Shown one piece after another: positions 48,024-58,000 of a stretch of DNA of 64,000 nucleotides. The position numbers and the translations under genes are program-made. Location of the stretch: NCBI RefSeq assembly GCF_026168555.1, contig NZ_CP092471.1, positions 630,501 through 694,500 of the forward strand, written 5' to 3'. The notes beneath the pieces were generated by a model. The model made no database searches and was not told the origin of the DNA. It saw only the letters and a list, made by a program, of their open reading frames with translations. The DNA comes from Qipengyuania spongiae (GTDB lineage: Bacteria; Pseudomonadota; Alphaproteobacteria; Sphingomonadales; Sphingomonadaceae). The stretch's first letter is position 1; the number at the start of each line of letters is the position of its first letter.

Positions 48024-48387
48024 GGCTTTTCTATCCGTCTGCTTTCATGGACACGCGGCGGATTATCCCGCCCCGGCCGCGAACCGGCCCCGGCCGGCGT
48101 TCGCGAAGGTGCGCCAATTGGTCGATCACCCCCGCAGAGTCAAGTAAATCCGGGGCTTCCCATGGAGGTAAAATAATACCGCGCGCTAGATGTCGTGCAG
48201 CGACCAGATCTCGCTGTCGCGTCCGCTTAATGACCGGACTGGACCGTGATTACGTTTTCAATAGCCCAAATTTCTCGTAATGACCGGACTGTGGTCCCGC
48301 GAATTGCCATCTGATCATCCATAAATGAAGGCATGAAAGCGTAACAGGCATTTTATCGTGCCATCCTAGCGCGCAGAAGCAAGGCTC
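48024..48387. other. Intergenic region at accessory-island edge, with a 13-bp direct repeat
   Basis: There is no gene here that I can support. It holds the rplM upstream region and then less GC-rich sequence. TAATGACCGGACT occurs twice in direct orientation (48228-48240 and 48278-48290), 50 bases apart. I saw no copy at the far end of the island, so it is not established as an attachment site. Confidence 0.6.
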
Positions 48388-48813
48388 TTAAGCATATCGC
48401 GGAGAACCTAGAAACTTAGTCAAGCTATCGAAGACGCTTTCAAAAGACCGTGTTTCGCATTCCCAGATCGTGAAAACCTTCCAGCCTGCGGCTTCTAAAG
48501 CGGCCTCGGCGGCTTGGTCGCGCTCGACGTTCGCGTCGAACTTCGCGGTCCAGAATTCCGTCCTCGTCTTGGGTGTGCTTGCCAGTCGACATCCAGGATG
48601 CCGATGCCAGAAGCAACCGTGGACGAAGATCACCTTTCGACGTTTCGTGAAAACTATGTCCGGCGAGCCGGGAAGTCCTTTGTAATTGGTCACGAACCGA
48701 TAGCCCGCAGCATGGAGCGCCCTTCGAACGACCATCTCGGGCTTGGTTCGACTTCTCCCCACGGCCCGCATGATGCGCGATCGCTCGGGGTCGATGACCG
48801 GTTCGTCGGTCAA
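48388..48813 (-). CDS. vsr: Vsr very-short-patch repair endonuclease
   Basis: Nicks next to T:G mismatches that arise when 5-methylcytosine deaminates. It has 141 residues from a TTG at 48813 that overlaps the upstream stop. The Vsr fold is clear: RSRIMRAVGRSRTKPE, GSPDIVF with metal Asp52, VIFVHGCFWHRHPGC with H65 and W69, and the RTEFWTAKFDANVERD motif. It is the last gene of the methyltransferase operon, which predicts that the partner enzyme makes 5-methylcytosine. Confidence 0.94.
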   Translation of the reverse strand: MTDEPVIDPERSRIMRAVGRSRTKPEMVVRRALHAAGYRFVTNYKGLPGSPDIVFTKRRKVIFVHGCFWHRHPGCRLASTPKTRTEFWTAKFDANVERDQAAEAALEAAGWKVFTIWECETRSFESVFDSLTKFLGSPRYA

Positions 48814-50798
48814 CTATCCTCTTCGGGCGCGAAATCGTCGATCGCGGACATGAGCGTCTGAAGTTTATCGACCTGAGCTCGGCCCTTGAGCCACTCCTCG
48901 TAGATCCGGTGTGCCTGGTCCATGAGTTTGTCGTAGAACAGAACTCTAGCTTTCTGCGTCCAGAGCTGCTCTTCCGACTGCTCCTGCCCGCCGATGTCGG
49001 ACCAGTCCGAGGGCGGCTTGCCGAGCAGAACGAGTATCTCGATCGGCTCGTTTTCACGGTCGGTGTCCTTCAGGATCTGCTTGAGGCCAGTCCGATACTT
49101 CCTGATCTGCTTCGAAAGGTCGTCGGTATGGGTCCCGACGTTCGGTCGCTTCATCTCGATTATGACATGCCGGCCGGCGGTCTTCCGATACCCGATATCG
49201 ATCCGGGCTGCCTTCTGTTCGTCGGTCAGCGTCGCGTCGATTTCATCGAACAGCTTATCGACCCGGCGCTCCATGAACTCGGTGTTGTCGGCACGTTCCC
49301 ACGCAGGATCGATCAACCAGAGATGATCGAAGAGATACTCTTGGATCACCTTTTCCAGCGCGTTCTGATCCACCTTCTCCTCGAGAGTTCGGATCACCTG
49401 GATGCGGGAGCGGACGATCTGTCCGTATAGTGAGGCCTCCAGGCCGTCGACCTCGCCAAACAGCTCGAGAAGGGTGGGCACGCCTTCGTCCTCGACGCTT
49501 TCTAGCGTCTCCAAGTTCTCGTTCAGACGATGGAACTCGAACGCGAGGACCGCCTGCTTGATGAGCGACTTCTCCTCGACGTTCCCGGGACTGATACGGT
49601 TGAGCTTGCCGATCCACTTCTTCGCGCGTGCTCGCGTCTTTGGTTGGAGAGCCGCGATCCATGCGGCGACCTCGGGTATCTCCTGCGCCTTCCGCGCGCC
49701 GCTCTCGACACGCCAGTTCTGCCAGACGCTTTGGATATGTTTGAGTTCCTCGGCGAGAAACTCCTTGAGTTCCACGAAACGCGGGTCGCCTTCGACGAGG
49801 CTCTGCCTACTGCTGGTCGCCGCATCGTCGTCGCGATCGTCGTCACCCGTCCACTGATCGAGCCCGTCGACGTATACCTCACCGATGAGGTAGCTGGCGT
49901 ACACACCGCGCTCGGTGAACGCGTCGAGCACGTCCTCCTGAGCCATCTTACCCCGAACGAAGATCGCGATCCGATTGAGGTTGTCGCCTTCCTCGTCGTC
50001 CTTCAGTTGGCCAGATTCTTTGACCGTGCCAATCCAACCACGGAGCGCGACGCCGCCGGGCGCGATCTTAGGGTCTCGCTCCTCGTGCTCCTCGACATTC
50101 GTGGCAAGCGACACGGCGTCGTCCTGCTCGCCGTAGGTCCACAGGTACTGAAGCTTGTCGTAGTAGTCGCGATCCGAGACCGTGACTTCCACGTCGTCGA
50201 TGAAGACCTTGAACTGATCGCTGCCGATGACCTGAAACCGGCGCGCGACACGGCGTCGTAGCGCGCGAGGTGTCGCCACGGTCTGCTTTCGCCTAAGATT
50301 GGTGAGGGTGATACGGGTGCCGTGTTCGAAGTCGATGTCGTCCGTGGACACAGGCTCCGGCTCGTAGGTCGTATCCTCGGCCTGCTCGTCCTCGATCTTG
50401 TGGCGGATATCGGGCAGGTTCATTCGAAACGCACTCGACTCGCCGTCCTTGCGGGTCTCGACGATCACGGTGTCCGCGATCGAGAAGAGCGACAGCTTGC
50501 CGATGCCCTTGCGGCCCATGGGCTTGCGTTCGAACTTTGGAGTGAGGCCGGGCTGACCCGCGCGCCGTCGATAGCCGACGGTGAGGAAGCGATCGTTCAC
50601 CTCCCTCTCGGTCATACCAGAACCATCGTCCTCGATGACGATCCGGTCGTTGCTCTGGTCCCATTCGATGCGAACCCGGGTCGCGTCCGCGTCGTAGGCG
50701 TTGGCGACGATCTCCGAGAGAACCGCCGCCATGTTGCTGTAGAGATTGATGCCTAGGTGTTCGAGCGTATTGAGGCTGATGGTCAGCTGAAAACTCAT
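48810..50798 (-). CDS. GHKL ATPase with predicted C-terminal PD-(D/E)XK nuclease
   Basis: A 662-residue protein from ATG 50798, coupled to the methyltransferase (ATGA). The N-terminal GHKL (Hsp90/MutL/MORC-like) ATPase is complete: N-box E29/N33/D36 in SEIVANAYDADATRV, G1 DDGSGM at 57-62, G2 GRKGIGKLSLF from 95, and GTRITLTNL. A long middle region is followed by a candidate nuclease core, D534...E548-M-K550 in the segment RIDIGYRK to IIEMKRP. GHKL ATPases occur in restriction-modification loci, so I infer that this is the restriction component; no separate restriction enzyme is present. Confidence 0.78.
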   Translation of the reverse strand: MSFQLTISLNTLEHLGINLYSNMAAVLSEIVANAYDADATRVRIEWDQSNDRIVIEDDGSGMTEREVNDRFLTVGYRRRAGQPGLTPKFERKPMGRKGIGKLSLFSIADTVIVETRKDGESSAFRMNLPDIRHKIEDEQAEDTTYEPEPVSTDDIDFEHGTRITLTNLRRKQTVATPRALRRRVARRFQVIGSDQFKVFIDDVEVTVSDRDYYDKLQYLWTYGEQDDAVSLATNVEEHEERDPKIAPGGVALRGWIGTVKESGQLKDDEEGDNLNRIAIFVRGKMAQEDVLDAFTERGVYASYLIGEVYVDGLDQWTGDDDRDDDAATSSRQSLVEGDPRFVELKEFLAEELKHIQSVWQNWRVESGARKAQEIPEVAAWIAALQPKTRARAKKWIGKLNRISPGNVEEKSLIKQAVLAFEFHRLNENLETLESVEDEGVPTLLELFGEVDGLEASLYGQIVRSRIQVIRTLEEKVDQNALEKVIQEYLFDHLWLIDPAWERADNTEFMERRVDKLFDEIDATLTDEQKAARIDIGYRKTAGRHVIIEMKRPNVGTHTDDLSKQIRKYRTGLKQILKDTDRENEPIEILVLLGKPPSDWSDIGGQEQSEEQLWTQKARVLFYDKLMDQAHRIYEEWLKGRAQVDKLQTLMSAIDDFAPEEDS

Positions 50799-51937
50799 GC
50801 GATACCGTGCTCCCGCATATGGCATATGATCGATCGCGCGATAGCGCGACCGAGAAGGACCGGCACGGCGTTGCCGATCAACCTGCCTACGGTCTTGGTG
50901 TGAATCTTGGCTCCCTCGGGAACGAAGCGATAGCTCTTGTCGAAGCTCTGGAGGATCGCACCTTCCCGAAGGCTGATCGCGCGGTCCTGCTCGGGATGAC
51001 CGAACCGGCCATTTCCGAAACCGTAGAACTGCGTCGTCATCGTGGGGGCGGGCTTGTTCCATTCCATCCGCCCGTACACCGACGGATACGACTTTCCGGT
51101 CTCAGCGCGATGACAATCGGTGACCAGTTCCTCGTCCCAGTCCCTCCATGTCCCACCGGGTTTCGCCGCACGTATGCGATCTCGGTTCCGAGGGCTGAGC
51201 GAGGCCGATCGGTGAAGCTCGTCTATTGGGTCGGTCTCACCGGCGCCAATCATGGCGAGGTCGCCGATGGCTTGAGCCACCGTCACGTGTTCCTCTACCT
51301 TCACCGGTGGTTCCTCGAGCGCGATCGGGCCATGGCGCGAAGCGAGGAGCACGAGCCGATTCCGTTTCTGTGGCACACCATAGTCCGCCGCACATACGAT
51401 GTCCGCGCTGACGTGATAATCCGCCTCCCGAAGGCGATCGACGAAGTTCCGAAGTACGGAGCCATTTTCGAACTTGGTGAGCCTAGGCACGTTCTCCATG
51501 GAGACGATGTCGGGTCGCACTTCGCAGATGAGGTCGGCGAAGCGTTCCACGAGCGCCCATCGGTCGTCGTCCCGTTTCGAGCTGTAGGACGAGAAAGGCT
51601 GACAGGGAGCGCAACCGACGAGGATCCGCGGCACCTCCGGCGTGAAGAGTTCTTCGAGTTCGTCGGCCGTCATCTCCGCGACGTTGCGCTCCAGGAACGG
51701 CACTTCGTTATTGGTGACGTATGGAAACCTGCACGCGGCGTCGTTGTCGATGCCCGCCGCCACCGGCAACCCTTCTGCGAGCAAACCCGCGGTCAGGCCG
51801 CCTGCTCCGCAGAACAGGTCGACGGCGGAAGCCGCTACGGGAGCGTCGGCGATATCGGTCAAGACTCCCTCCTTCTGGTTCGTGGCCTCTGGCGCGATTA
51901 GCGAGTCAAGACCTTTTTGGGAAGAATAGTCGCTCAT
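50795..51937 (-). CDS. dcm: DNA (cytosine-5) methyltransferase
   Basis: An AdoMet-dependent C5 cytosine methyltransferase of 380 residues. Motif I FCGAGG (42-47), motif IV with catalytic C112 in GCAPCQPFS, motif VI ENV (147-149), motif VIII PQKRNR, and motif X RLIGNAVPVLLGRAIA are all present. The target-recognition region between VIII and IX is short, and the sequence specificity cannot be read. It is flanked by ATGA overlaps, second in the four-gene operon. The linked vsr gene agrees with m5C chemistry. Confidence 0.94.
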   Translation of the reverse strand: MSDYSSQKGLDSLIAPEATNQKEGVLTDIADAPVAASAVDLFCGAGGLTAGLLAEGLPVAAGIDNDAACRFPYVTNNEVPFLERNVAEMTADELEELFTPEVPRILVGCAPCQPFSSYSSKRDDDRWALVERFADLICEVRPDIVSMENVPRLTKFENGSVLRNFVDRLREADYHVSADIVCAADYGVPQKRNRLVLLASRHGPIALEEPPVKVEEHVTVAQAIGDLAMIGAGETDPIDELHRSASLSPRNRDRIRAAKPGGTWRDWDEELVTDCHRAETGKSYPSVYGRMEWNKPAPTMTTQFYGFGNGRFGHPEQDRAISLREGAILQSFDKSYRFVPEGAKIHTKTVGRLIGNAVPVLLGRAIARSIICHMREHGIA

Positions 51938-53112
51938 CGCTTCGACAGTTCGTTCGAGGTGCTCGAGATGGCTCGGTCGTCTTGGCTCAAAAGCTCATCG
52001 ACCGCGGTCATCGCTGCGTCGAATTCGTCCAAGGCCGAACGAGAGAACGTTTCACGCTGTCGAACTCCATCGTTCGACTGCGAAGGACCGTCAGCAACGA
52101 AGGAATGCAATTTCACTCCACTTGCCTGGGTCGTCGTGGCGAGACCGATCTCCCGCAGGCTCACGAGCATGCCGTGAACCCCTACCCGCGTAGCGCCGAT
52201 CAGGCGTTCGAGCTGATCCGAGCGCATGGCGCCGAAGCCCGCCAGTAGAGAGGCGAGTGCAGATGCCCGCGAAGTGGACCGAAGGCCGGAGCACCGCTCT
52301 CGGATTGCGCGATCCGCCCTAGTTGCTACTTCCACGATCCTCGTCAGCTGCCTTGCCGACCGTTCCAACGCCGCGAGATGGTCCGAGACCCGCTCCGTCT
52401 CGTCTACGTCGGCGCGTAGAGAATGGGCCATGATCGATCCAGGTAGCGGCAGGGCATGGCGCAACACACCGTCGCTCTTCAGAACAAAGCCGGCGTAGAG
52501 CGACAAGGCCCATGTCGGCGGGCCGATTGGCAATAGTCGATAGGCCCGGCGATATGCGCCATCGCCGAACGTGCGCAACTGGCTCTCGCGCGGCGCGAAG
52601 ACGACGTGCTCGCGGGCGGCATCGGCATAGTCGAGCGCGAGGTTGGAAGATCCTTTCCCGAGCTTGACCCGCTTTGCGAGGTCCGAAGCCTGCCAGAGAT
52701 CGTCGACCGGATCCGAATCGTCTTCGATACGCCGCGCGTCCCTTACCGGTCGTGCGATGGTGCCGAACCCCTGCGCGGCCTCGGCGAGCGGTTGCCATTC
52801 GTGCGAGCCAAGTTCGGATAGGACCGCGGTCATGATGCGGCCAGGCGAGCGCTGCCGGTTGGTCTCCTCGCCCGTCAGCGTGGCGATGCCGGCGCGCCAG
52901 ATCGCGAACCCATGGTCGGTGAACGCGTGGCGCTCGATCCGCAGGGCGTCGATCACGCAGTCGGTGACCACTCTCTGCGCAAATATTGCGCCAGCGCCCG
53001 AGTTCAGGTTGGCGATCGTACCGTCGAGCCGTCCGAGCGCCACGACCGTCCTGTCGCGCACAACTCGCCGTGAGTCGAAGTCGATCGTGTCGTAGTCGTC
53101 GAGGTCGATCAC
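51934..53112 (-). CDS. Unknown protein with C-terminal winged-helix-like domain, first gene of the R-M operon
   Basis: I do not recognise this 392-residue protein with confidence. It opens from a GTG at 53112 without a clear ribosome-binding site. The N-terminal two thirds are alpha-helical with GHGFAIW-type conserved-looking motifs (TDHGFAIWRAGIATLTGEET). The C-terminus contains a helix-turn-helix-like segment (SDQLERLIGATRVGVHGML, then LREIGLATT). The layout is reminiscent of DUF1612/HTH proteins of rhizobial plasmids. Its stop overlaps dcm (ATGA). It may be a regulator or an extra subunit of the system. Confidence 0.6.
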   Translation of the reverse strand: MIDLDDYDTIDFDSRRVVRDRTVVALGRLDGTIANLNSGAGAIFAQRVVTDCVIDALRIERHAFTDHGFAIWRAGIATLTGEETNRQRSPGRIMTAVLSELGSHEWQPLAEAAQGFGTIARPVRDARRIEDDSDPVDDLWQASDLAKRVKLGKGSSNLALDYADAAREHVVFAPRESQLRTFGDGAYRRAYRLLPIGPPTWALSLYAGFVLKSDGVLRHALPLPGSIMAHSLRADVDETERVSDHLAALERSARQLTRIVEVATRADRAIRERCSGLRSTSRASALASLLAGFGAMRSDQLERLIGATRVGVHGMLVSLREIGLATTTQASGVKLHSFVADGPSQSNDGVRQRETFSRSALDEFDAAMTAVDELLSQDDRAISSTSNELSKR

Positions 53113-53146
53113 CGGCGCGAGTATCCCGAAGCGGACAATTGCACGA

Positions 53147-53175
53147 TGTATAGCTAACTTCGGTAAACTTGACAG
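53147..53175 (-). promoter_or_regulatory. Putative promoter of the restriction-modification operon
   Basis: On the minus strand CTGTCA (53170-53175) and TATACA (53147-53152) are separated by 17 bases, and the -10 lies 34 bases before the GTG at 53112. The first gene has no visible ribosome-binding site. Confidence 0.5.
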
Positions 53176-53198
53176 CCACTCGTATGGTCGATCTCGCG

Positions 53199-53229
53199 CA
53201 CTATCGATAATCGGACACTATCGATAGTG
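53199..53229. promoter_or_regulatory. Operator-like palindrome pair between R-M operon and integrase
   Basis: CACTATCGATAGTG (53216-53229) is a perfect 14-base palindrome; a related copy, CACTATCGATAATC, begins 17 bases earlier (53199-53212). The tandem lies in the 150-base divergent gap between the operon and the recombinase gene, the usual place for a shared operator. Confidence 0.65.
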
Positions 53230-53262
53230 ACAATGCGAGAATCCGCCGTTATGGCCTGAGAA

Positions 53263-54591
53263 ATGCCGCGCCAAACCGCTTCCGTCGCTCGTTTATCGCA
53301 TCACTCCGCGTCGGAAATCGTGACGATCGAAGGCGCGGGACGTGGCGAACTTCCCCGCCGCCGTTCCGGTCAGGCGCTCGACCGTGTCCGGCAGCTGACC
53401 GAACTGCTCGCGGAAATCGTCCATCCCGATCACGCCATCGACCGGCTCGCCTACCGCAAGGCGCTCGAGGCGCGCGCGTCGAACACCGTTAGGGCGCTCG
53501 CGAGCGACCTCGCGTGCTATGCCGCGTTCTGTCGCACCGAACTCGGCGTAAGCCTGCCGGCGTCCGAAAGCCGGGTCGTCGCCTATCTCGAGCATCTCGA
53601 GGCGCTCGGGCGCAAGCCCGCGACGGTCTCGCGACGGCTCGCCAGCCTGGCGACGATCCACGGTCTGCTCGGGGTGACCTCGCCGACGCTTGCGCCGGTG
53701 GTGCGCGACGCGATGCGCGGGCTGCGCCGCCGGATGGGGGTCAGGCAGCGGCAGGCGGGCGCGCTCAGGTTCGGACCGGGGATCGATGCCGCGCTCGCGC
53801 TCGACGGCGAGGACGGTGCCGCCGAAGAAGGACAAGGCAAGCGTTCCCATCGGAACGCTTTCACGCTGACCGCGCTGCTCGCCGCCTGCGACATCGATCC
53901 GTCCGGACTTCGCGATGCCGCCCTGCTGTCGCTGGGCTACGATACGGGCCTTCGGATATCGGAACTGCTGCGGGTCGAGGTCGTGCACCTCACGCCCGGC
54001 GAAACGGGAGACGGCGCGGGCGTGCTGTTCGTTCCGACCTCGAAGACCGATCAACAGGGCGAAGGCGCCCATGCCTGGATCTCGGCCGACACAATGCGAA
54101 GGGTCGCGGCGTGGCTCGAGGTCGCGGAAATCCGTTCAGGGCCGATATTTCGGCGTGTGGCCGTGCGGCGTGCGAAGGCTTGGGCCGCCAACCGTCCGGT
54201 ACGGATGGAGTCGCTGGCGCCCAATGCGCGGATTACGCGGGAGAGAATGTACGGACGTCCGGCTGTTCCGGCGAAGGTGACCTATACGGTCGGCGATGTC
54301 GCCCTGACCCCCGTGGCCGTCCGGACGATCTTGAAGCGCACCGCGTTGCGCGCCGCCGATCTTGGTCTGGTCGATCTCTATGGCAGCGCGCTCGACGATG
54401 CGATCGCGCGCCTGTCGACGCATAGTCTTCGGGTCGGGCTCACGCAGGACCTGTTCGCCAACGGCGAGGATGCGGGTCCGATCGCGCAGGCGCTCCGGTG
54501 GAGCTCGACGGCGACAGCGCTTCGATATGGGCGCGAACTGGCGCCCGAGAGCAATGCTACGGCGCGGATGCTGAGAAATGTACGGCAATAG
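53263..54591 (+). CDS. Tyrosine recombinase / integrase
   Basis: A site-specific recombinase of 442 residues. An N-terminal SAM-like arm domain (about 50-150) is followed by the catalytic domain with all active-site residues: R231 (GYDTGLRISELLR), K261 (PTSKTDQQG), H387 and R390 (STHSLRVG), W413 (LRWSS) and nucleophile Y422 (ALRYGREL). It is divergent from the restriction-modification operon and shares its operator region. No tRNA, xis or phage genes are adjacent, so its target site is unknown. Confidence 0.92.
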   Translation: MPRQTASVARLSHHSASEIVTIEGAGRGELPRRRSGQALDRVRQLTELLAEIVHPDHAIDRLAYRKALEARASNTVRALASDLACYAAFCRTELGVSLPASESRVVAYLEHLEALGRKPATVSRRLASLATIHGLLGVTSPTLAPVVRDAMRGLRRRMGVRQRQAGALRFGPGIDAALALDGEDGAAEEGQGKRSHRNAFTLTALLAACDIDPSGLRDAALLSLGYDTGLRISELLRVEVVHLTPGETGDGAGVLFVPTSKTDQQGEGAHAWISADTMRRVAAWLEVAEIRSGPIFRRVAVRRAKAWAANRPVRMESLAPNARITRERMYGRPAVPAKVTYTVGDVALTPVAVRTILKRTALRAADLGLVDLYGSALDDAIARLSTHSLRVGLTQDLFANGEDAGPIAQALRWSSTATALRYGRELAPESNATARMLRNVRQ

Positions 54592-54953
54592 GAGGCAGAG
54601 CAGCTTCTGGGCGGAATTTACGATGGCCGGTACGGCTGAGATGGGGTGGTTTCGCGACAGTCGGCTTTCCGCGATTTTCTAGCGAAATCGGATTGTCGCT
54701 CGACCCTTGGGCGACGTTCTCCCAAGAACCTCCGTTTGCGGAGCTTGATAGCGAGAGAATTATTGGAGAGTGGCTTCGCATCTCAGACAATAGCGCGCAG
54801 CTTTGCACGGCCTCATATATTAGAACCGTTCAGCCTTGAACAAATACATTGTTCGACGCTAGAAATCGATTGGACGTAATAATTATATTAAGTACAAATT
54901 TGATTCTGGGGAAATGGGTCTCAGCACAAACAACGACTTGGCGGCTGTTCTTC
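54592..54953. other. AT-rich intergenic region
   Basis: A 362-base gap where composition drops from GC-rich to AT-rich. No supported gene. It contains TAATAATTATATT (54877-54889), which also occurs in the predicted oriC. Confidence 0.55.
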
Positions 54954-55430
54954 CTACAGCCTAGTCAGGTCTTCGATATGCATTGAGTTGATCTGATAAG
55001 GGGTGCCTGGGCAACTGCTAGTATCAGGCGCTTCGGCACGAAGCGGAGCAGAACGAGGGTCGAGCGGTTCAGATGGGTACGGCCCTCCCTCCCCAGTAAC
55101 AATTGAGCCAAATGGTATCCTGCGACCATCGTCAGCTATGATCGAATATCCTTGTTCCCGTTCTTCAACTCGGTAGCCAGGTTGAAAGAGAGGAATTGCT
55201 ACATGGTCGTCTTGAACTGCAAATTGTGATTCTCGCAGCATTTCTTCGCCAAGCACGATAACCACGCATCCATCTCGCTCAGCCAAGCGGCCGGTGTATG
55301 AACTGAACGAACCCATCTCCGGATCGCCGCTGAAATACATCGTTAACGGCTGCTGGCTGCCGCATCCTGTCAGCAACGCTATTGCTGACAAGATGCAAAC
55401 GCCTCGAAAGATAGCCGACCCTTTCATCAT
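54954..55430 (-). CDS. Hypothetical lipoprotein
   Basis: A 158-residue protein with a lipoprotein signal (GVCILSAIALLTGC, lipobox LTGC) and a short domain with strand-like repeats (GRLAERDGCVVIVLGEEM, REQGYSIIADDGRRI). No family recognised. The base composition is distinctly more AT-rich than that of the core genes. The start codon overlaps the protease stop (ATGA at 55427-55430), so the pair is coupled, and it may bind or hold the protease at the envelope. Confidence 0.65.
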   Translation of the reverse strand: MMKGSAIFRGVCILSAIALLTGCGSQQPLTMYFSGDPEMGSFSSYTGRLAERDGCVVIVLGEEMLRESQFAVQDDHVAIPLFQPGYRVEEREQGYSIIADDGRRIPFGSIVTGEGGPYPSEPLDPRSAPLRAEAPDTSSCPGTPYQINSMHIEDLTRL

Positions 55431-56700
55431 GGAGCGATGAACGTGCTAGTACCATTTCGCCAGACGTTTATTGTCATTGGCGCGAAATCATTCACACGGT
55501 CGAGTGGCATGTATACAAACCAGCAATCGGTATCAGACGTTTGATTGTCGCACGGGCGTTCACCTCGATCAGGGAATACGGGATTGACCGGCTTCTTATT
55601 GGACCCGTGCAAAATTCCAGCTGCTTGGACTTGGTGATAGCCAGAGGCGGAATCGTAACGTGGCGCGTCGAATACTGCGCCACCAGAGTCGCCGCCGTCG
55701 GAAATTATACGTTGATCTGATCTACCGACCTGAACCATTCCATCCACTAAAATACCATCGTCGTTATAGCCACCGTAGTAGCTTGAATTGACGATTATGC
55801 CGCAGGTAATGCCGGTAGTTCTGCCAGATTTGCACCTCACGGCCCCGTTCGGGTGTCCCGGATTGTATACCCCCGTGGTTGTTCCGCTTGATAGGCTACC
55901 TATGACACGTAAGTAATCATTGGCTGGAAGTCCGCTATGATAATTGGAATAACTAACTGTCGTTGGTCGCCAGCCATTCGGTGCGCTACTATCGCGCACA
56001 TCTTGGGTATAAGAGCCCTCTCTTGGATTGTAATAATATATGAAGGGACCACTTTTCACCGTTGTTGCAGGTATGAGCCTAAAGTCATAGGTCCGCCTTA
56101 AATTCGTGGCTCCACTTTCATAAGCATAACGCCTATATCGCGAGTCCGACTGATTCGAAAATGTTATGACCTTTCGACCAGTGTTTTCATCGTTTCTTCT
56201 GGTTTCGCTAGGGCTGTCTTGGCAATGCTCTGCAGTCAGAAGCCCTTGATTGCCACTTTGGTCTCGAGCTGTAAATGAAAAGGTGCAGTAGTAGTTTGTA
56301 CCTCTGTTCCCATAGTGCGACCAGCCACCATATAGAATATCACTTGACGTAGCATTGCTTTGTGACGTGGTAGTAAGGTCACCCTCTTTGAACTCGACAA
56401 GCGCGCGATACTGCGGGGGAACCAAAGCGCGAAGTTTTGCTATGTTATCTCTGGGTGTACGTATAACGAAACGATCTCGGCTGTAATCAAAGGCCAACTC
56501 ATAACCGCTGTTACCCAAAACAGAAATGAGTGCTGTGCGTGTCGTTTCGACTTCGCCAATGGCAAAGCGGGAGCGCCTAATTTGAACGAAGGATCGCAGT
56601 TTTGCTGGAATAAGTTTTCTGACTTCGGAGTCGAATTGATCAGATGCCATGCTGAGCACCACCTGTCCCCCGTCAGCACCTATGGCACAGATTTGAGGTT
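55427..56700 (-). pseudogene. Trypsin-fold (S1) secreted protease, 5' end cut by an IS remnant
   Basis: The coding frame carries a complete chymotrypsin-like triad: His in LTAEHCQDS, Asp in RTYDFRLIP and Ser in SDGGDSGGAVFD. A pro-domain-like region precedes it (SRDRFVIRTPRDNIAKLRAL), as in alpha-lytic-type proteases. The frame continues to 56779, but the last 26 or so codons are the antisense of IS sequence and no signal peptide remains. The gene was therefore probably truncated at about 56700. AT-rich composition suggests transfer. An internal start such as MASDQFDSEV could still give an unexported product. Confidence 0.72.
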
Positions 56701-56985
56701 GTGATTTAAGGAGGATTTGGGCTTCGTCGTAGTGACGAAGGAACGAAGATGAAGCCCAAATCCTCCAATGCAAAATCACCGGCCGAGCGGGTGGTAAAGG
56801 ACATCCGCCGCAAGACCCGTCGGCATTTTTCCGCTGAAGATAAGATCAGGATCGTGCTCGACGGCCTGCGCGGTGATGACTCCATTGCCGAGTTGTGCCG
56901 CCGCGAAGGGATCGCACAGAGCCTGTATTACACTTGGTCCAAGGAGTTCATGGAAGCCGGCAAGCGCAGGCTTGCTGGCGATTCT
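56700..56985 (+). mobile_element. IS3-family insertion sequence remnant
   Basis: The left end of an IS, with the terminal TGATTTAAGGAGGATTTGGGC at about 56702 and the start of the transposase OrfA. The right end, OrfB and the second terminal repeat are absent. It separates an AT-rich protease gene from a truncated core-type gene. Confidence 0.75.
56749..56985 (+). pseudogene. Truncated IS3-family transposase OrfA
   Basis: The reading frame gives the OrfA start, with RRHFSAEDKIRIVLDGLRG, the helix-turn-helix residues SIAELCRREGIAQSLYYTW and KEFMEAGKRRLAGD, as in IS3/IS1111-like OrfA proteins. After RRLAGD the similarity ends and the frame runs into unrelated sequence of the next gene. It is a non-functional 5' fragment of about 78 codons. 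Confidence 0.75.
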
Positions 56986-58000
56986 GATCGCCGTGATCGC
57001 GCTTGCGCTGCTGCTGTACCGGGCTGTGCTGGCGCAGGACGATCTCGCGGTGCTCGGCCTGATGGTGGCGATGTCCGCACTCTCGCTGCTGCTGATCGGC
57101 CATCGCCTGGCCTTCGTCGCGGCGCTGCTGGCGCTGATGCTCGGGCGCGGCGGATTCGACACGATCGGGTCGGCGTTCGAGGGGATGCGCGAGCGCAGCT
57201 ATTTCGGCACCTACGCCGTGCGCGAGGACGAGCTGCCGGGCTTGCGCGGGCTGACCCACGGCACCACGCTCCACGGCCTGCAGTTCGCCGATCCCGAGCG
57301 CGCGCGCGAGCCGACCACCTACTACACCCGCACATCGGGCGTCGGGCTGGCGCTGGGCAATTCGGTCGCGCTCGCCGGGCCGCAAGCGCGCATCGGTGTG
57401 ATCGGGCTCGGGGTTGGCACGCTCGCCTGCTATCGCACCCCCGATCAGGCCTACGAATTCTTCGAGATCGACCCCGCCATCGTCGCCCATTCGCGCGACG
57501 GGACCTTCACCTATCTGCGCGACTGCGTGCCGGATGCGGCGATCCATGTGGGCGATGCGCGACTGGAGCTCGAGGCCATGCGAGCGGCGCGGTTCGACAT
57601 CCTCGTGCTCGACGCCTTCAGTTCCGATTCCATCCCGCTCCACCTCTTTACCCGCGAGGCGTTCGGCATCTACCGCCGGGCGATCGATGCTGACGGGCTG
57701 CTGCTGGTCCACATCTCCAGCCGCTATGTCGACTTGCAGCCGATGATCGCCGGCCTTGCCCGCGCGAACGGGATGCAAGCGGCGATTCGCGAGGATCTGG
57801 AGGTCTATGCCACCGGCGCCTCACCCTCGATTTGGGTGGCGCTGTCACCCGATCCCGCGACCATGGCGGTGCTGCGCAAGACGGGCGGGCCGGGCGCTTG
57901 GCAGGATCTGCCACCCCCGCCGGACCGCGTGTGGACCGACGACTTCGCCTCGATCCTGCCTTTCCTCCAGTGGGACAATGTGCTGGGTAGAGGGCCATGA
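56966..58000 (+). pseudogene. Truncated membrane/spermidine-synthase-like protein gene
   Basis: The sequence from about 56966 encodes the end of a multi-helix membrane domain (LLAILIAVIALALLLYRAVL, LAFVAALLALMLG) joined to a spermidine-synthase-type AdoMet domain (IGVIGLGVGTLACY, FEIDPAIVAHSRD, FDILVLDAFSSDSIPLHLF). Intact relatives are fused transporter-synthase proteins with many more N-terminal helices, so the front half appears lost at the IS junction. The 3' end is intact and overlaps the carbonic anhydrase start. Confidence 0.72.

Follow-up and report, generated by a model that had tools for sequence, protein, structure and literature searches.

A BbrUII/HgiDII-type restriction-modification operon headed by a recombinase-neighbour gene in Qipengyuania spongiae

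The four-gene operon and its GHKL-nuclease protein

We analysed a 64,000-nucleotide stretch of the Qipengyuania spongiae genome (contig NZ_CP092471.1, positions 630,501 to 694,500; hereafter the window), which carries a restriction-modification (R-M) type operon of four genes on the minus strand (Table 1). The genes follow one another in the order g1, dcm, a gene encoding a GHKL ATPase joined to a nuclease-like domain (the GHKL protein) and vsr, and all three junctions overlap by exactly 4 nt. An earlier reading of the bare sequence, the original prediction, had described four genes joined by 4-base overlaps, and both the open reading frames (ORFs) and the overlaps proved to be real. Co-transcription and translational coupling of the four genes are plausible in view of these overlaps. 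The dcm product matches Pfam DNA_methylase with an E-value of 1e-50, and the vsr product matches Pfam Vsr (E 3e-23) and TIGR00632, with 136.6 bits against a cut-off of 97.85.

Table 1 Features of the operon and its upstream region (positions in the window).
Feature	Position	Strand	Description
vsr	48388..48813	-	Very short patch repair-type mismatch endonuclease; 141 aa, TTG start; Pfam Vsr, TIGR00632
GHKL protein gene	48810..50798	-	GHKL/S5 ATPase joined to PD-(D/E)XK-like nuclease, BbrUII/HgiDII family restriction enzyme; 662 aa
C-terminal nuclease-like domain of GHKL protein	48834..49391	-	Residues about 470-655; E482, D534, E548, K550
dcm	50795..51937	-	C5-cytosine methyltransferase; 380 aa; Pfam DNA_methylase
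g1	51934..53112	-	392 aa, GTG start; Fic-like fold without Fic motif, C-terminal winged helix
31-bp dyad	53199..53229		CACTATCGATA-N9-TATCGATAGTG; between g1 and integrase
Integrase	53263..54591	+	Tyrosine recombinase/integrase; 442 aa, divergent from g1; Pfam Phage_integrase

The GHKL protein contains a Pfam HATPase_c_3 match (E 1.1e-23) and was assigned at full length to a catalogued family. The curated NCBIfam equivalog model NF050001 (BbrUII/HgiDII family restriction enzyme; cut-off 550 bits) matches it with 815.4 bits, residues 3-653 aligning with profile positions 1-659, so that the cut-off is cleared over the whole length. PADLOC labels the same protein REase_II. Therefore, the GHKL protein belongs to a known restriction-enzyme family, and a C5-cytosine methyltransferase gene adjoins it. 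In a sample of 385 genomes of the class, an NF050001 match over the cut-off is present in 3, that of Q. spongiae included.

We inspected the catalytic residues in an alignment of 54 GHKL proteins (the window, two genomes, six plasmids and 45 loci from GTDB contigs). Residues E29, N33, D57, G59, G61, G95, G98, G100 and T161 are each conserved in 54/54 rows; E29 is the conserved glutamate of the N box and D57 the invariant aspartate of the DxGxG box. The window protein thus has the N, G1, G2 and G3 box residues that characterize a GHKL ATPase, in agreement with the prediction of intact N, G1 and G2 boxes. D58, which had been proposed as the ATPase mutation target, is not the box aspartate: position 58 is D in 43 of the 54 rows, N in 9 and T in 2. 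The proposed D534, E548, K550 core at the C-terminus lies where it had been placed. E482, D534 and K550 are invariant (54/54 each), and position 548 is E in 53 rows and D in one. D534 falls on a predicted strand at 532-540, E548 and K550 on the adjacent one at 543-550, and E482 in a predicted helix (478-488), giving the D...(D/E)xK pattern on adjacent strands, preceded by an acidic helix residue, that is typical of PD-(D/E)XK sequences. Every family-invariant residue that we counted is kept in the window protein. From its sequence, the GHKL protein is thus the likely effector, its C-terminus bearing a conserved PD-(D/E)XK nuclease motif; family assignment and motif both support the same suggestion in the original prediction.

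The architecture has precedents in the literature. GHKL proteins with a C-terminal restriction-endonuclease-fold domain were named paraMORC3 by Iyer, Abhiman and Aravind in 2008, whose accessible text describes R-M neighbourhoods with cytosine methylases and Vsr for these families and a subset of paraMORC3 that stands alone (PMC2292703). A paraMORC-related group is likewise tied to type II R-M and Vsr in the available part of PMC8011034. The window protein shares with paraMORC3 the GHKL and S5 module, a C-terminal domain with E-D-ExK motifs and the R-M neighbourhood, a likeness set by the published description and not by member sequences. VcSduA of Vibrio cholerae, a GHKL protein with a DUF4263 domain, loses phage defence on mutation of either an ATPase or a nuclease residue (E27A or K557A), and such GHKL-Shedu proteins were formerly annotated as paraMORC3, according to the accessible text of PMC12137116. 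VcSduA and the window protein have in common an N-terminal GHKL ATPase, a middle domain and a C-terminal PD-(D/E)XK nuclease, in the window protein a predicted one, and by motif reading, without an alignment, E27 and K557 of VcSduA correspond to E29 and K550. They differ in that the window system has a methylase and Vsr alongside, and in that its similarity to Shedu stays below the Pfam cut-off. Since the family is catalogued (NF050001, REase_II), its architecture predicted and a GHKL-Shedu precedent known, the earlier statement that no classical restriction enzyme is present holds for the fold only; the family is already listed as a restriction enzyme. Literature joining BbrUII to Shedu was not found under the topics BbrUII/HgiDII, paraMORC, GHKL-Vsr-methylase and Shedu, in a search that left most subscription papers outside.

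Gene order in the family and the first gene

To the window locus we compared the family loci, 90 in all: 80 from GTDB contigs (the best 80 of 540), 3 genomes including that of Q. spongiae, and 7 plasmids, these being the ones with a match among 54 plasmid records. The GTDB loci were retrieved with an alignment query (A3); a single-protein query returned none. The dcm gene lies upstream of the GHKL gene on the same strand in 70/90 loci and in other positions in 6/90, and was not found in 14/90, some of them on cut contigs. Vsr is present in 25/90 (27 by single-sequence search); in 13 loci, the window locus included, it immediately follows the ATPase gene with no change of strand. The full-length match to a curated family, combined with a gene order common to most of the 90 loci, is far beyond chance. 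Compared with known BbrUII/HgiDII systems, the window operon has the same full-length NF050001 match, upstream C5 methylase, Vsr and conserved GHKL and D-E-x-K residues; it differs in being headed by the recombinase-neighbour gene g1, which occurs in 1/90 loci, its own.

We also compared 68 family methylases, including three much more distant members. The mean frequency of the top residue is 0.62 in the target domain and 0.60 in the N-terminal core. The target domain is as conserved as the core, which suggests from sequence that the family methylases share one specificity. BbrUII itself presumably cuts GTCGAC. The same sequence is the recognition site of M.HgiDII, to which, as to M.BbrUII, an archaeal methylase is homologous (PMC5867850, available text), and a methylase listed in the accessible part of PMC6329791 is 55% identical to M.HgiDII. 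The site of Dcm is probably GTCGAC. Depletion of GTCGAC was considered as evidence of specificity and rejected, since stretches of five relatives, none with the family over the cut-off, show the same depletion; the window DNA therefore gives no evidence of specificity. On plasmids, dcm-like methylases in H146 and H159 overlap annotations of a MAE_28990/MAE_18760 HEPN-like nuclease; methylases of this kind may thus have different effector partners as well.

g1 has no match in Pfam, PADLOC or NCBIfam at E 0.1. It shows the overall Fic fold and a C-terminal winged helix (residues about 261-346). The Fic motif HPFx[D/E]GN[G/K]R, as given in the available text of PMC2686095, is present in 0/17 rows of its alignment (A5), and in none with looser patterns. 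Relatives of g1 adjoin site-specific recombinases. A hotspot for defence genes behind g1 was considered: in 20 other g1 loci, R-M genes were not found, and the genes seen behind g1 are toxin-antitoxin, transposition or replication genes or unnamed ORFs. Conversely, a single-sequence search at E 1e-5 did not find g1 in the 89 other family loci, so the BbrUII/HgiDII family works without it. The proposal that an HTH-type first gene makes the operon a variant R-M system is not supported. We also asked whether the family usually begins with a conserved controller gene. Of the loci in which dcm is close upstream of the ATPase gene, 26, the window locus included, have an ORF of 80 aa or more whose end falls between -70 and +60 nt of dcm; only two pairs of these first-gene candidates are alike. 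Ten of the ORFs were scanned and gave no HTH family match at E 0.01; one is a second methylase. A conserved controller was thus not found among ORFs of at least 80 aa, a size limit at which smaller controllers could be missed.

The closest parallel to g1 is found in RHE_PE00001 (DUF1612) proteins, which are encoded beside rhizobial-plasmid integrases and resemble g1 in length, C-terminal winged helix and recombinase neighbour. DUF1612 proteins have a Fic-like N-terminus (PMC2686095, available text), as g1 does, and one RHE_PE00001 gene (in L198) has just upstream the same dyad as g1. Unlike members of that family, g1 has no NCBIfam match to it, and the sequence similarity is marginal: the profile E-value is 0.0016-0.003, confined to about 50 residues, and a profile-profile comparison that drew on just two RHE sequences gave E 0.037 across 23 columns. 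By sequence, g1 was accordingly rejected as a member of RHE_PE00001 (NF040876, cut-off 250 bits); the copy in L038 scores 525.2 bits. RHE_PE00001 occurs in 2/90 family loci, both Rhizobium plasmids (single-sequence search, E 1e-5). On the Rhizobium plasmid locus L038 (1-6923), an integrase, an RHE_PE00001 protein, DUF5677, vsr, dcm and a BbrUII-type ATPase are encoded in a row. This is a second case of a BbrUII-type R-M system beside a Fic-like recombinase neighbour. The position of g1 at the head of the window operon is best explained by insertion of the R-M genes behind a plasmid-type recombinase module.

Integrase, dyad and genomic setting

The integrase matches Pfam Phage_integrase (E 5.8e-10, 39.7 bits, cut-off 27.1) and is 58-61% identical to the integrases of three other loci (L153, L159 and L160). 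The dyad between it and g1 consists of two TATCGATA palindromes within CAC...GTG. A search allowing up to 3 mismatches finds its inner 29 nt at a single place in the genome, so the reading of the island as an integrated element with two attachment sites is not supported. The same 29 nt recur exactly, in the same place upstream of g1, in L153, L159 and L160. L161, whose integrase is 58% identical, lacks the dyad there and has one about 40 kb away on the same plasmid (L197). A degenerate dyad was seen by eye in L035 and L162, and none is present in L042, L146, L150, L156 and L157. In arms and place the dyad recalls an Xer/dif-like core, with inverted arms, a short spacer and a tyrosine recombinase beside it; it is single-copy, and elsewhere it also occurs with no integrase found in the fetched 5 kb. 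Judged by its sequence, it could be the core site of recombination or, alternatively, an operator.

A 51-nt query with the dyad found similar stretches in 118 plasmid records (E up to 10, weak matches included), 87 of them from Sinorhizobium. Six of the 118 were opened, and five contained the dyad and one (L196) most of it. In L198 the dyad sits about 25 nt upstream of where the RHE_PE00001 gene is annotated to start, and in L196 it precedes an RHE_PE00001-like gene broken into two frames. A distant tyrosine recombinase accompanies the dyad in L194 and L199, in L199 together with toxin-antitoxin genes. Profile searches found neither an integrase nor an RHE_PE00001 partner in L195 and L197; L197 has an annotated 'recombinase family protein'. 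No integrase was found beside the dyad in the fetched 5 kb of L195-L197. The dyad is also seen in two viral contigs, and it recurs on sphingomonad and rhizobial plasmids, sometimes near recombinase or toxin-antitoxin genes.

The wider setting was compared with a near relative (G001, 97% identical at rplM), taking in window positions 48182-56980 and the region L187 (622000-634000 of G000:C1). Homology to G001 stops at window position 48181 and resumes at 56981; in G001 itself, the part that resumes there joins the left flank (-1188) directly, at 487230/487231. This indicates an inversion of roughly 49 kb relative to G001, with an 8.8-kb block (48182-56980) at one breakpoint; the block has no match at this place in G001. 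Transposase-like ORFs are found at both breakpoints (Pfam HTH_Tnp_1 and rve), and two ORFs of no Pfam family that abut in G001 are parted in the window genome. The ORF at 56749-57693 begins with a transposase fragment (HTH_Tnp_1) ending at breakpoint 56981, and is probably a remnant rather than a gene. GC content rises along the block, from 56.8% in vsr through 59.9% in the GHKL gene, 61.4% in dcm and 64.0% in g1 to 68.2% in the integrase. This is compatible with a composite origin and proves nothing.

A probable restriction cassette behind a recombinase module

Taken together, the locus very probably holds a complete BbrUII/HgiDII-type R-M cassette (dcm, the GHKL-nuclease gene and vsr) directly behind g1 of a plasmid-type recombinase module. 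At the level of sequence, the genes are open, retain the conserved residues of the family, lie in its conserved order and overlap. Dcm would methylate the system's own sites, probably GTCGAC. The GHKL protein would act as a dimeric, MORC-type clamp gated by ATP, which places its C-terminal PD-(D/E)XK domains on unmethylated DNA and cuts it, and Vsr would repair T:G mismatches arising from deaminated 5-methylcytosine. The transcript would now begin with g1, which has a winged helix and a Fic fold and lies next to the divergent integrase. In this plasmid-type setting, where several related loci have toxin-antitoxin genes, the R-M genes may act as a maintenance (addiction) cassette.

Several results weigh against this interpretation. 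The window C-terminus scores 14.8 bits (E 0.033) against SduA_C (PF14082), under the Pfam cut-off of 27, and a shallow profile comparison of the family with two Shedu proteins only gave no support. A sequence search of solved structures with the C-terminal profile gave nothing up to E 10. The listed structure matches to the whole protein were filled by the ATPase part, and the absence of the C-terminal domain from them is no evidence against a PD-(D/E)XK fold. Eukaryotic MORC proteins rank as the nearest matches of the ATPase half in the structure comparison, but the Foldseek order puts Hsp90 first (GRP94, E 6.2e-14), with MORC2 at rank 14 (E 1.6e-12). GTCGAC occurs 41 times in the window against 67 expected, much as in stretches of the five relatives (44 against 68.3). 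A scan of 48150-53400 found no consensus promoter. Finally, several of the 90 loci are short, and a distant first gene could be missed in them.

Other explanations were weighed against the same evidence. g1 could genuinely belong to the system, as a winged-helix regulator that binds the upstream dyad and, in the manner of a large controller protein, sets when methylase and nuclease are expressed. Its winged helix, its place at the head of an operon with 4-nt overlaps, and the recurrence of the dyad upstream of g1 in L153, L159 and L160 and before RHE_PE00001 in L198 would fit such a role. Yet g1 occurs in 0/89 other family loci, R-M genes occur in 0/20 other g1 loci, and at 392 aa g1 is unlike controller proteins, which are about 80 aa long; we regard this role as unlikely. 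An even bolder version, that the R-M genes are wired into a plasmid-maintenance recombinase module, has a catalytically dead Fic-fold g1, made first and coupled in translation to the methylase, bind the dyad, so that the recombination or copy-number state there governs methylase and nuclease as a recombination-sensed addiction module. We consider this a very improbable arrangement.

A Shedu-type function, in which the GHKL protein is mainly an anti-phage effector sensing a feature of phage DNA and the methylase merely protects self, draws on the shared architecture of VcSduA, for which the available text of PMC12137116 mentions no methylase, and on SduA_C similarity within the family (matches at E up to 0.1 in 32/40 members, best 1.1e-6). 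SduA_C gave no Pfam match at E 0.1 in the whole window GHKL protein, and neither its sub-threshold signature score nor the empty profile comparison supports Shedu membership of that protein. The matching family models are moreover type II restriction enzymes, the methylase is upstream on the same strand in most loci and its target domain is conserved, which makes this function rather improbable. The four genes could also be a silent or degenerate island whose overlaps stem from chance insertion. The unmatched block ending in a transposase fragment at an inversion breakpoint, the low GC of vsr and the empty promoter scan are consistent with this idea, to which we give the least credence: four frames are open, the GHKL family-invariant residues are kept and three junctions overlap by 4 nt.

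The window system thus belongs to a known, little-studied restriction family, and its unusual feature is g1 as operon head. In BbrUII/HgiDII enzymes, the ATPase half is nearest to eukaryotic MORC and the nuclease part leans to Shedu. A single testable protein thereby links the literatures on type II restriction, on MORC chromatin ATPases and on Shedu defence. This raises the question of whether clamp closure on DNA requires ATP in a methylation-sensitive restriction enzyme. The operon head, in turn, points to a little-described plasmid module, consisting of a recombinase, a Fic-fold winged-helix partner and a conserved dyad, that is able to carry a defence cassette.

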